Positions 7,242 to 38,153 of a DNA stretch of 38,153 bases are shown in pieces. This DNA is from Secundilactobacillus similis DSM 23365 = JCM 2765. GTDB lineage: Bacteria; Bacillota; Bacilli; Lactobacillales; Lactobacillaceae. A program made the position numbers and the translations under genes. Position 1 is the stretch's first letter; every line of letters starts with the position of its first letter. The notes under the pieces were generated by a model. That model worked only from the letters and a program-made list of their open reading frames with translations. It had not been told where the DNA came from and searched no databases. The stretch is from NCBI RefSeq assembly GCF_001311075.1, contig NZ_BBAD01000026.1, forward strand, positions 1 through 38,153, given 5' to 3'.

Positions 7242-7493
7242 TTGTCGTTTGTGTCCGGTGTAAATGCCCCTACATGCAGCTCTCAGTCTCGCGCAGCACC
7301 ATTGGCGTGGTGGCCAGAAAACGCGTGGTTGACAAGCTTATATAACTTCAGGAACCCTAGAAATAACAGTTTAAGTGGCGCCGAATTTTGTAATCTGAGA
7401 GCGCCGGTTCTCGTGCGGCTTTGGCGAGCGAAGCAACGACAAACAGCCAACACCCCAAGTACACCCAACACTTACGCTGGACACAAGTGACAG
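7242..7493 (+). repeat. Palindromic repeat family 1, copy A (deleted centre)
   Basis: About 250 bp highly similar to 31679-31995 and 37899-38153. Its ends form an imperfect terminal inverted repeat, TTGTCGTTTGTGTCCGG (7242-7258) against CTGGACACAAGTGACAG (7477-7493). Compared with the other copies, the outer left arm and the left half of the central hairpin are deleted: the sequence jumps from the terminal repeat to CCCCTACATGCAGCTCTC. The conserved right part (GCGCAGCACCATT, ACTTCAGGAACCCT, AAGTGGCGCCGAATTTTG) is intact. No convincing protein is encoded. It lies between two intrinsic terminators. Confidence 0.85.
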
Positions 7494-7501
7494 CAAAAAA
7501 A

Positions 7502-10556: not shown

Positions 10557-10767
10557 TGTAATCAACTCACTTTCCGATGATTTAGTAACCACTTTCATTA
10601 TACCGTGGTGACGTTGGTAACGTCCAGATGTGGCTCTTCTGGGTTTGTGGTCGTGACCAACTAAATAGATTCAACTATCACGCTGAACCGTAGTGCCGGT
10701 GCGGGATTGCTGTATTTCAAGTTTAAAATATGGTATAGTTTTTGTGATAGAAAATGAGGGATATGCC

Positions 10768-11240
10768 GTGGAAAAATTAGACTTTTATAAGCACCATATT
10801 GAGACGTCATTAATTGATATTATGAATACCCGGGCTCAGGATAATAATTTCGAGCGGCAGTGGATTCAGTTACACGTGCCGAACCGGGATCTTCAGTACG
10901 CGATTTCGCAACTCAACACGCTCAGTTTAAAGCTGTTGCGTCAGATTCAACTGCTGGGGCCAGTGAGCGAAACGGACCTTGTCCAAGCTCTGGATCTAGG
11001 GCTGGGTGTGATCTCTAAAAACGTCAACAAGCTGGTTCGGTTAGCTTCGCCAACAAAACGGGCGTGGTTAGCAGTCAGGCAGTCTACCAGCTGTCAAAAA
11101 CGGGGAACCGAGTGGCAATGGTTCAAAAGCAACTCGATGACCTACTAGATAAGCAACACGAGGAACTGGTATCGCATTATACGCCCGAACAGTTGGAACT
11201 GGTGGCGACTTTTTTGAAGGAGTTGCAGGAAGGGCATTAG
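10768..11240 (+). CDS. MarR-like winged-helix regulator (one-base frameshift)
   Basis: About 157 residues. The N-terminal half is helical (MEKLDFYKHHIETSLIDIM). The winged-HTH region runs from LRQIQLLGPVSETDLVQAL through LGVISKNVNKLVRL. A missing G near 11042 breaks the frame; adding it gives LGFANKTGVVSSQAVYQLSK and TGNRVAMVQKQLDDLLDKQH, then a helical tail to the TAG at 11240. This is the recognition helix, wing and dimerisation helix order of MarR proteins, although the first helices diverge. The GTG start at 10768 follows GAGGG by seven bases, and a TATAGT -10 box is at 10734-10739. It is divergent from usp with no other partner, so targets are unknown; autoregulation is usual in the family. 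Confidence 0.75.
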
Positions 11241-11241
11241 A

Positions 11242-11291
11242 GTGCGGAACGAAGCGCTTTGCTTCGTTCCGCACGTTTCGGCGTGGTGACC
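11242..11291. repeat. Palindromic repeat family 2, short copy E
   Basis: Starting one base after the marR stop, GTGCGGAACGAAGC (11242-11255) pairs perfectly with GCTTCGTTCCGCAC (11261-11274) around the loop GCTTT. It is followed by GTTTCGGCGTGGTGACC (11275-11291). The same 14-bp arms and the same flank occur in reverse orientation at 17171-17308, where a 65-base inner hairpin sits between the arms. The flank TTCGGCGTGGTG also occurs in family 1. It may terminate marR transcription, though no T tract follows. Confidence 0.8.
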
Positions 11292-17170: not shown

Positions 17171-17308
17171 TTTCGGCCACCACGCCGAAACGTGCGGAAC
17201 GAAGCAAAGAACTATGTGTAAGGGGGACTAAGGTAAAACTGGCTAAAGTTCAGCCAGCTTTACCTTAGTCCCCCTTACACGCCGTTCTTTAGGCGCTTCG
17301 TTCCGCAC
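17171..17308 (-). repeat. Palindromic repeat family 2, copy D with giant nested hairpin
   Basis: Outer arms GTGCGGAACGAAGC (17192-17205) and GCTTCGTTCCGCAC (17295-17308) are followed inwards by AAAGAAC (17206-17212) and GTTCTTT (17284-17290). Then comes a 29-bp stem, 17216-17244 with 17252-17280, which has one mismatch and a seven-base loop. Together about 50 of 58 positions per side pair. The plus-strand stretch TTTCGGCcaccacGCCGAAA at 17171-17190 is the flank seen beside copy E (here inverted) and is itself a small hairpin. The inner stem starts GTGTAAGGGGG, as does the inner stem of copy B. It lies between recX and the promoter of the DUF402 gene; no protein is encoded. The remainder of the gap 17045-17396 holds only that promoter. 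Confidence 0.88.
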
Positions 17309-17335
17309 TCTGTCCTTTTCCCCCACCCTCACTTA

Positions 17336-31678: not shown

Positions 31679-31995
31679 TGTCGGTAAGTGTGCGGAGCGA
31701 GACGGGTTGAGAGCGTAATGTAAGGGGGTTCGGTGAAAGCGCCCGGGTCTGGCGGTTTTATCGAAACCCCTTACATGCAGCTCTCAGTCTCGCGCAGCAC
31801 CATTCGGCGTGGTGGTCAGAAAGCGCGTGGTTGACAAGTTCCTACAACTTCAGGAACCCTGGAAATAACAGCTAAAGTGGCGCCGAATTTTGTAGCCTAA
31901 ACGAGCGCTTTTCAATGCGACTTTGGTGAGCGAAGAGACGACAAACAGCCAACACCCAAATCGCACCCAATGCTTACGCTGGACACAAACGACAA
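31679..31995 (+). repeat. Palindromic repeat family 1, copy B
   Basis: About 315 bp. Outer arms 31688-31714 (GTGTGCGGAGCGAG then TTGAGAGC) and 31780-31800 (GCTCTCAGTCTCGCGCAGCAC) pair imperfectly. Inside, ATGTAAGGGGGTTCGGT (31718-31734) pairs with ATCGAAACCCCTTACAT (31760-31776), with AAAGCGCC/GGCGGTTT extending the stem. The right end CGCTGGACACAAACGACAA matches the inverted terminal repeat of copy C; the left end is degenerate. Compared with copy C the inner stem has different bases on both arms but still pairs. It fills most of the 500-bp gap 31572-32075 between the MucBP-like gene and clpE; nothing else is seen there besides the clpE terminator. Confidence 0.88.
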
Positions 31996-37885: not shown

Positions 37886-37898
37886 GCGTCTGTTTTTA

Positions 37899-38153
37899 TT
37901 GTCGCTTGTGTCCAGCGACAGTGTGCGGAGCGAGGCGGGTTGAGAGCTTAGTGTAATGGCACTTCGGTGAAAGCGCCCGGGCCTGGCGGTTTTATCGAAG
38001 TGCCATTACATGCAGCTCTCAGTCTCGCGCAGCACCATTCGGCGCGGTGGCCAGAAAGCGCGTGGTTGACAACTTCTTGTAACTTCAGGAACCCTGGAAA
38101 TAACAGTTTAAGTGGCGCCGAATTTTGTAGCCTGAGAGCGCCGGTTTTCGCGC
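37899..38153 (+). repeat. Palindromic repeat family 1, copy C (cut by window end)
   Basis: The left terminal repeat TTGTCGCTTGTGTCCAGCG (37899-37917) matches the inverted right ends of copies A and B. Then come the outer arm GTGTGCGGAGCGAGGCGG and the inner hairpin GTGTAATGGCACTTCGGT (37951-37968) with ATCGAAGTGCCATTACAT (37994-38011). The conserved right part follows up to the window end, about 75 bp short of the expected right terminus. ATTCGGCGC (38037-38045) can also pair with GCGCCGAAT (38115-38123), giving a second stem. Confidence 0.88.

Follow-up and report, generated by a model that had tools for sequence, protein, structure and literature searches.

The window analysed here is the whole stretch of 38,153 nucleotides from Secundilactobacillus similis DSM 23365 = JCM 2765 (contig NZ_BBAD01000026.1). 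It contains copies, named A, B and C, of a repeat whose central hairpin changes in sequence and keeps its pairing. The question raised by this locus is what kind of entity preserves the fold while the letters change. The original prediction named a mobile element, a structured RNA, or both. This came close to the result described below, except that the two components are separable: copies B and C carry, as their inner hairpin, a member of a family of hairpin units of approximately 120 nt, and throughout this family the hairpin exists as an independent unit. Our reading, which leans on analogy and to which we assign a probability of roughly 0.55, is that the unit is a REP-like hairpin repeat of 3′ untranslated regions in Lactobacillales, probably acting on termination or mRNA stability.

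Copies in the window and in its genome

Copy B of the approximately 340-bp element with terminal inverted repeats (TIRs) lies at 31679..31995 (+). Its left TIR is decayed, and its right TIR is matched at 31973-31988. The hairpin unit of copy B (31687..31806, +) was scored by the covariance model R1 with 107 bits (E 7.8e-28) on the plus strand and 50.7 bits on the minus strand. Copy C (37893..38153, +) is truncated by the contig end; its hairpin unit (37920..38041, +) reached 100.6 bits with R1 and a folding energy of -75.7 kcal/mol. As predicted, B and C are alike save for the inner stem (89.7% identity over 224 aligned columns), the two inner stems are different and paired, and the fixed loop side beside the changed stems is present in the sequence. 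Across the 18 inner-stem positions, the pairing claimed for both copies holds for C, with Watson-Crick and G·T pairs only, while B has one G/A mismatch besides G·T. The plus strand of copy B folds at -70 kcal/mol, compared to a mean of -39.5 for shuffled sequences (z -9.5), and in the two units folded on both strands the plus strand is favoured by 12.3 and 9.5 kcal/mol.

The TIRs had been put at about 19 bp; in better kept copies they span about 25-30 bp (TTTTTGCTGTCGTTTGTGTCCAGCGTAAGTG type). No ORF of at least 80 aa was found within 31679-31995, in agreement with the expected lack of a protein. Copy A (about 7243..7499, +) has its left part deleted save the TIR tip and retains the right part of the TIR element from the right arm onward. 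Its right arm (GCCCCTACAT) matches the commonest stem type of the genome and is therefore not a private third variant.

Two further units were located in the window. The stand-alone hairpin unit at 17186..17311 (-) scored 91 bits on the minus and 56 bits on the plus strand with R1, and has an unrelated inner stem; no such TIR was seen beside it. The minimal unit at 11239..11280 (+) consists of the outer hairpin only (42 nt; R1 29 bits), and the AG with which it begins supplies the last two letters of the TAG at 11238-11240 that closes a frame ending in FLKELQEGH. This frame (10693-11240), whose stop is the TAG completed by the minimal unit, seemingly shifts before its last ~70 codons.

The window's own genome (G000; 3.45 Mb, 176 contigs, listed contamination 6.9%) holds at least 40 near full-length copies of the element, B included, with 84-100% identity among the 40 of 336 first-look candidates that were scored. 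Compensated variants beyond B and C are present: 21 distinct inner stems occur among the 40 copies and C, and their 378 cells (21 stems of 18) comprise 330 Watson-Crick pairs, 40 G·T, 1 A·C and 7 other combinations. Unpaired changes in the inner arms, which had been named as counter-evidence, occur in some stems and are missing from most. Locus L009 combines the arms of two stem types, with three unpaired positions including the sole A·C, and looks like a recombinant of these types; five other stems, in six copies (L001, L007, L013/L014, L025, and L029), have one mismatch each. In L038 (G000:C69:10502-11214) the loop orientation is reversed and the stems are unchanged, as though the palindrome had flipped at its tip. 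The observation of changed but paired inner stems is thus confirmed as real, and it extends far past the window.

Architecture and covariation of the hairpin unit

From its base, the unit begins with a GTGC/GCAC-type stem and a GGA/GNA internal loop, followed by an outer stem (7 pairs) whose sequence varies freely and by a one-sided bulge of 3-4 nt. An AGAGAGC/GCTCTCT-type stem and a GGA/GCA internal loop form the middle part. The core stem (GTGTAAG/CTTACAT type) opens with a conserved G·T, and the tip consists of a freely varying inner stem and a small loop. As judged by eye, left ends are mostly AGAGTG or AAGGTG, and right ends GCACGTTT or GCCCGATT. Units occur singly or in tandem, with the same direction in arrays. 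The same architecture, with unrelated stems and often in tandem, was found at the loci read in other genomes of the genus.

Pairing was counted in 90 units selected by the fixed core alone. The 1080 cells of the inner stem comprise 905 Watson-Crick pairs, 116 G·T, 5 A·C and 54 others, whereas 1000 shuffles of the stem partners gave means of 457, 171 and 99 for the first three classes, and at most 508 Watson-Crick pairs. Stem 3 has 406 Watson-Crick pairs, 42 G·T, 1 A·C and 1 other. For the outer stem, with 44 different arm pairs, the counts are 603, 9, 4 and 14, in a register for which the bulge length was picked per unit for best pairing; its strand asymmetry (9 G·T against 4 A·C) is weak.

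In a wider set of 67 units (145 found, then filtered for pairing and for being less than 86% alike), 95.6% of the cells are paired compared to 31-48% in slid controls. In this set, pre-filtered for pairing, 34 of 42 pairs changed on both sides, and the covariation score is 0.606, compared to 0.190 for shuffled and 0.06-0.10 for slid alignments. Both internal loops, GGA/GNA and GGA/GCA, persist as mismatches. The G·T that opens the core stem at its base is present in 65 of the 67 units and replaced by A-T in 2, and the base stem has a weak pair, columns 6-130, that is unpaired in 35.

A G·T pair turns into A·C when the opposite strand is read, so it is the plus strand that retains the fold. The original claim that the fold matters is supported by the excess of G·T over A·C in the inner stem, the kept internal loops and the pairs changed on both sides. 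The strand-specific pattern argues for selection on the folded plus strand, and free sequence change with matching sides points to a folded piece of mRNA rather than junk.

Distribution

When the whole element was searched as DNA against 60 genomes (at most 12 candidates scored in each), nine had matches: G000 and eight others of the same genus, the latter with ~70% identity and over the hairpin only. The core pattern with a free middle of 28-56 nt was matched 92 times in 12 of 15 genomes of the genus including G000 (reversed control: 0), and a scan of named genomes yielded 31 loci, all from Secundilactobacillus species. The model R1 reached further. All 15 Secundilactobacillus genomes searched have matches, from 10 to at least 150 per genome, as have 95 of 201 Lactobacillaceae genomes from 22 of 40 genera (Secundilactobacillus counted in). 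Across the order, 20 of 198 genomes were matched, 12 of them outside the family; weak matches are included here, and some may be chance hairpins. The same general parts were recognized at nine loci from other Lactobacillaceae genera (L249, L250, L252, and L254-L259) and also at L284-L287, of which L284 and L287 come from outside Lactobacillaceae.

In the window, Rfam gave no matches. At the units of L118, L209, L249, and L255 there were none, or weak miRNA-type or unrelated ones far below gathering scores. A named Rfam family was therefore rejected for the units, with no gathering-score match in the window or these four loci. Away from its unit, L209 has a match (1-79, -) to RF02840 (Ref68, Lacto-3 RNA) that is cut by the locus end, with 43.1 bits against a gathering score of 44. 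A phage source was also considered and rejected: the core pattern had no exact match in viral contigs, a search that would miss diverged ones. The portion of the literature covered by our search contained no description of these units for Lactobacillaceae; such a paper may still exist.

Placement at stop codons

The position of 91 units relative to genes was analysed using codirectional frames of at least 90 codons, taken by length alone and ending at most 400 nt upstream. Such a frame precedes 54 units. Its stop lies within 5 nt of the first stem base in 32 of the 91, and two others overlap the end of their frame by 8 nt, so that 34 units are docked at a codirectional stop (-8..+5 nt). The other upstream stops are found at 6-20 nt (4), 21-100 nt (2), or beyond 100 nt (14). 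Within 400 nt of the right ends 42 convergent stops were found, none of them within 5 nt.

The docked units have TAG 25 times, TAA 9 times and TGA never, compared to 221 TAA, 106 TAG and 51 TGA for frames of at least 150 codons in the fetched loci (overlapping frames included). Units begin with AG-AGTG or AA-GGTG, so a preceding T completes the stop. For first units with a boundary TAA or TAG, 23 of 36 of these triplets are CDS stops, whereas the background share is 3.6% (189 of 5297 TAA/TAG near units, noncoding triplets and CDS stops together). The binomial p of 7e-25 is too small because orthologous sites were counted repeatedly; the units are non-independent, being in part orthologues and tandem copies. 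Outside the genus, in 7 of 14 loci (L249, L250, L252-L259, and L284-L287) the boundary TAG closes a frame of 61 to 499 codons (minimum 60; the longest is cut by the locus end). In L258 the frame ends inside the unit, and the other six have no frame.

The remaining 57 of the 91 units are off codirectional stops. At least seven units (L068, L110, L124, L129, L140, L147, and L204) lie a few bases past a terminator-like T-run, which looks like a second placement class. Further units run antisense to the neighbours on both sides and may not be co-transcribed with a gene. One such antisense site is occupied in five species (L122, L137, L139, L150, and L197). Its unit has a longer loop (GGTGCGCCG...) and compensated stem changes and is a candidate for an independent small RNA.

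Orthologous sites were compared downstream of lplA and asnA. At lplA, a unit or array starts at the stop in G010, G005, G013, G009, G001, and G007, a remnant likewise starts there in G012, and in G011 the unit starts about 4 nt past the stop. A plain TAA with other downstream sequence was found in G003, G004, G006, G002, G014, and G008; in G000, the plain TAA is followed by a terminator-like hairpin and then by the TIR element. At asnA, units stand at the stop in G005, G001, G013, G010, G009, G012, and G000, with a collapsed one in G007 and one about 6 nt past the stop in G003. No unit was seen at asnA of G011, G004, G006, and G002, and G008 and G014 gave no asnA match. In G000, asnA is split into three pieces (G000:C29:12029-12887, L241-L243) and is either a pseudogene or an assembly error.

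At one and the same site, lplA or asnA, stems differ between species with pairing held. As seen by eye, some units reappear in another order, and arrays therefore turn over fast. At both genes the array is placed, again by eye, downstream of the stop and ahead of the next terminator-like hairpin; therefore, it should belong to the mRNA of the upstream gene. An all-against-all comparison of stand-alone unit sites returned mostly differences in unit number and no clean base-level empty site.

Proposed role and alternatives

Taking placement and fold together, we infer the presence of the units in mRNA, an effect on termination or decay, their manner of spread and, by analogy, a REP-like action. 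A very stable structure would meet the terminating ribosome and 3′ exonucleases, and the hairpin could in this way tune how translation of the upstream gene terminates, how ribosomes are recycled and how the mRNA decays. Stem sequences would be free to drift, since pairing and the internal loops would be all that counts. Units would multiply and vanish quickly by tandem gain and loss, by partial deletions and by presence or absence at one site. In G000, one lineage may have been captured by the TIR (MITE-like) element and then spread to intergenic sites, often beside terminators.

If the units act as REPs do, many Lactobacillaceae genes hold a 3′ control element missed by annotation. The units are located where translation ends, and their docking at stops allows a direct test. 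Being common in a much-used family and having no Rfam match in our searches, they constitute a very clear data set of pairing kept under drift, and their ratio of G·T to A·C is a clean case for separating selection on RNA shape from palindrome repair in DNA.

A more far-reaching proposal, which we put forward tentatively and hold to be doubtful, is an undescribed class of mobile, RNA-structured element in Lactobacillales that would be delivered to or strongly kept at the stop, with its first bases rebuilding the stop codon (T+AG or T+AA) and its hairpin controlling how the ribosome ends. If true, many genes per genome may carry a tunable 3′ module in which shape is the signal and sequence is free.

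In our judgement unlikely is a selfish unit that is mobilised in the form of a single-stranded DNA hairpin, the mode assumed for REPs and Y1 tyrosine transposases (RAYT), and whose fold would persist for being read by the mobilising enzyme. This reading would fit the very high copy number, sites that have a unit in one relative and lack it in another, the sharply defined left end, tandem arrays that differ in their number of units and the one-strand fold with its kept internal loops; the same G·T bias would be expected of a plus-strand DNA hairpin read by an enzyme. However, compensated change at one orthologous site is unexpected for a dead copy, and no Y1 transposase (PF01797) was found in G005, G013, and G004 with their 116, 93, and 49 unit matches. 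In a search confined to the Y1 class, 33 of 95 Lactobacillaceae genomes with units had a match, compared to 25 of 106 without units; among genomes with at least 12 unit matches, 25 of 40 were without one. Dependence on Y1/RAYT was rejected as not supported by the PF01797 distribution over the 201 Lactobacillaceae genomes.

The whole could instead be a MITE family in which selection acts on the ~340-bp TIR element, a transposase working on the TIRs moves it and the hairpin is incidental cargo. We consider this improbable, even though the element as such is well supported in G000, where one hairpin lineage lies inside it, a nesting seen in this genome only. The carrier fits the MITE criteria of TIRs, no ORF and many copies, with the at least 40 near full-length copies given above. 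The TIR end TTGTGTCCAGCGTAAG was found with at most 2 mismatches at 151 forward and 150 reverse sites (301 in total; reversed control 0), and facing TIR pairs are ~300 or 750-900 bp apart among the 100 of 301 sites listed. Twelve longer elements of 699-900 bp (L041-L049 and L052-L054) share the TIRs, have longest ORFs of 48-129 aa and carry other hairpins with covarying arms (9 arm pairs, 7 of them perfect; 76 Watson-Crick cells, 1 G·T, 0 A·C, 4 other). Among the G000 elements examined, no transposase of an autonomous parent with the same TIRs was seen. Several contigs end inside longer TIR elements (contig-end stretches L264-L279), and a longer one could therefore be missing from the assembly. 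Among the 20 copies for which long flanks were available, 15 have a right-hand neighbour directed toward the element, at a distance of 22-60 nt in twelve cases; on the left, several flanks close, by eye, with a hairpin and T-run. All this covers the copies of G000 but not the hairpin family: the whole-element query matched the eight other genomes of the genus over the hairpin only, the hairpin model matches 15 of 15, and the unit at 17186-17311 stands alone.

Arm-to-arm correction by template switching in the palindrome during replication, originally offered as hairpin-templated repair, would mirror mutations and give pairing without function. In its favour are the long palindromes, the inverted loop between unchanged stems in L038 (loop inversion is a possible product of palindrome arm exchange) and nearly equal outer-stem G·T and A·C (9 and 4). 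As the principal cause it is highly improbable: such a process would be expected to act on the two strands equally and to remove fixed mismatches, whereas G·T exceeds A·C by 116 to 5 in the inner stem, 42 to 1 in stem 3 and 40 to 1 in the window's own family, and the internal loops and one-sided bulge are kept. It may act now and then, as in L038.

Comparison with known systems

An intrinsic terminator was considered and rejected: units are followed by GTTTCGGC- or GATTAGGC-like letters and, by eye, by no T-run.

BOX and RUP of Streptococcus pneumoniae are MITE-like short interspersed repeats (PMC3049150). Compared by description only, they share with our repeat the short interspersed nature and, in the 340-bp carrier, TIRs with no ORF. 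The hairpin unit, by the same description, differs in having no such TIR and in being kept by pairing instead of by end sequence.

The Efa or Efa-1 repeats, also named EFAR, are likewise stem-loop repeats close to 3′ ends, and Enterococcus faecalis belongs to the same order. In contrast to our unit, Efa-1 is listed at 163 nt and as a pair of adjacent stem-loops, a comparison made by description only. According to PMC1590033 and PMC2267715, Efa-1 stem-loop repeats lie near gene 3′ ends and are said, from unpublished data, to stabilise co-transcribed mRNA. By description, Efa-1 of E. faecalis may be a relative.

REPs are defined as palindromes of 20-40 bp with a GTAG or CGTC tetranucleotide at one end, and the RAYT/Y1 transposase is missing from CGTC REPs and from some GTAG species (PMC3733652). 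For E. coli, two studies placed 260 of 496 and 446 of 4,072 REPs, respectively, no more than 15 nt from a stop codon, a position in which REPs can cause ribosomes to stall and the mRNA to be cleaved (PMC12306157, citing Liang, Rudd and Deutscher 2015). Our units differ from REPs in their length of ~120 nt instead of 20-40 bp (42 nt in the minimal form), in having, by eye, no GTAG or CGTC end tag, in stems that vary freely with compensation, in boundary bases that complete the stop codon and in the lack of a Y1 transposase in three unit-rich genomes. The unit is not filed as a REP, as neither length nor end tags fit and the Y1 link that belongs to GTAG REPs does not apply. Like REPs, the units are palindromic intergenic repeats present in many copies at gene 3′ ends, often near the stop; REPs are their closest working analogue.
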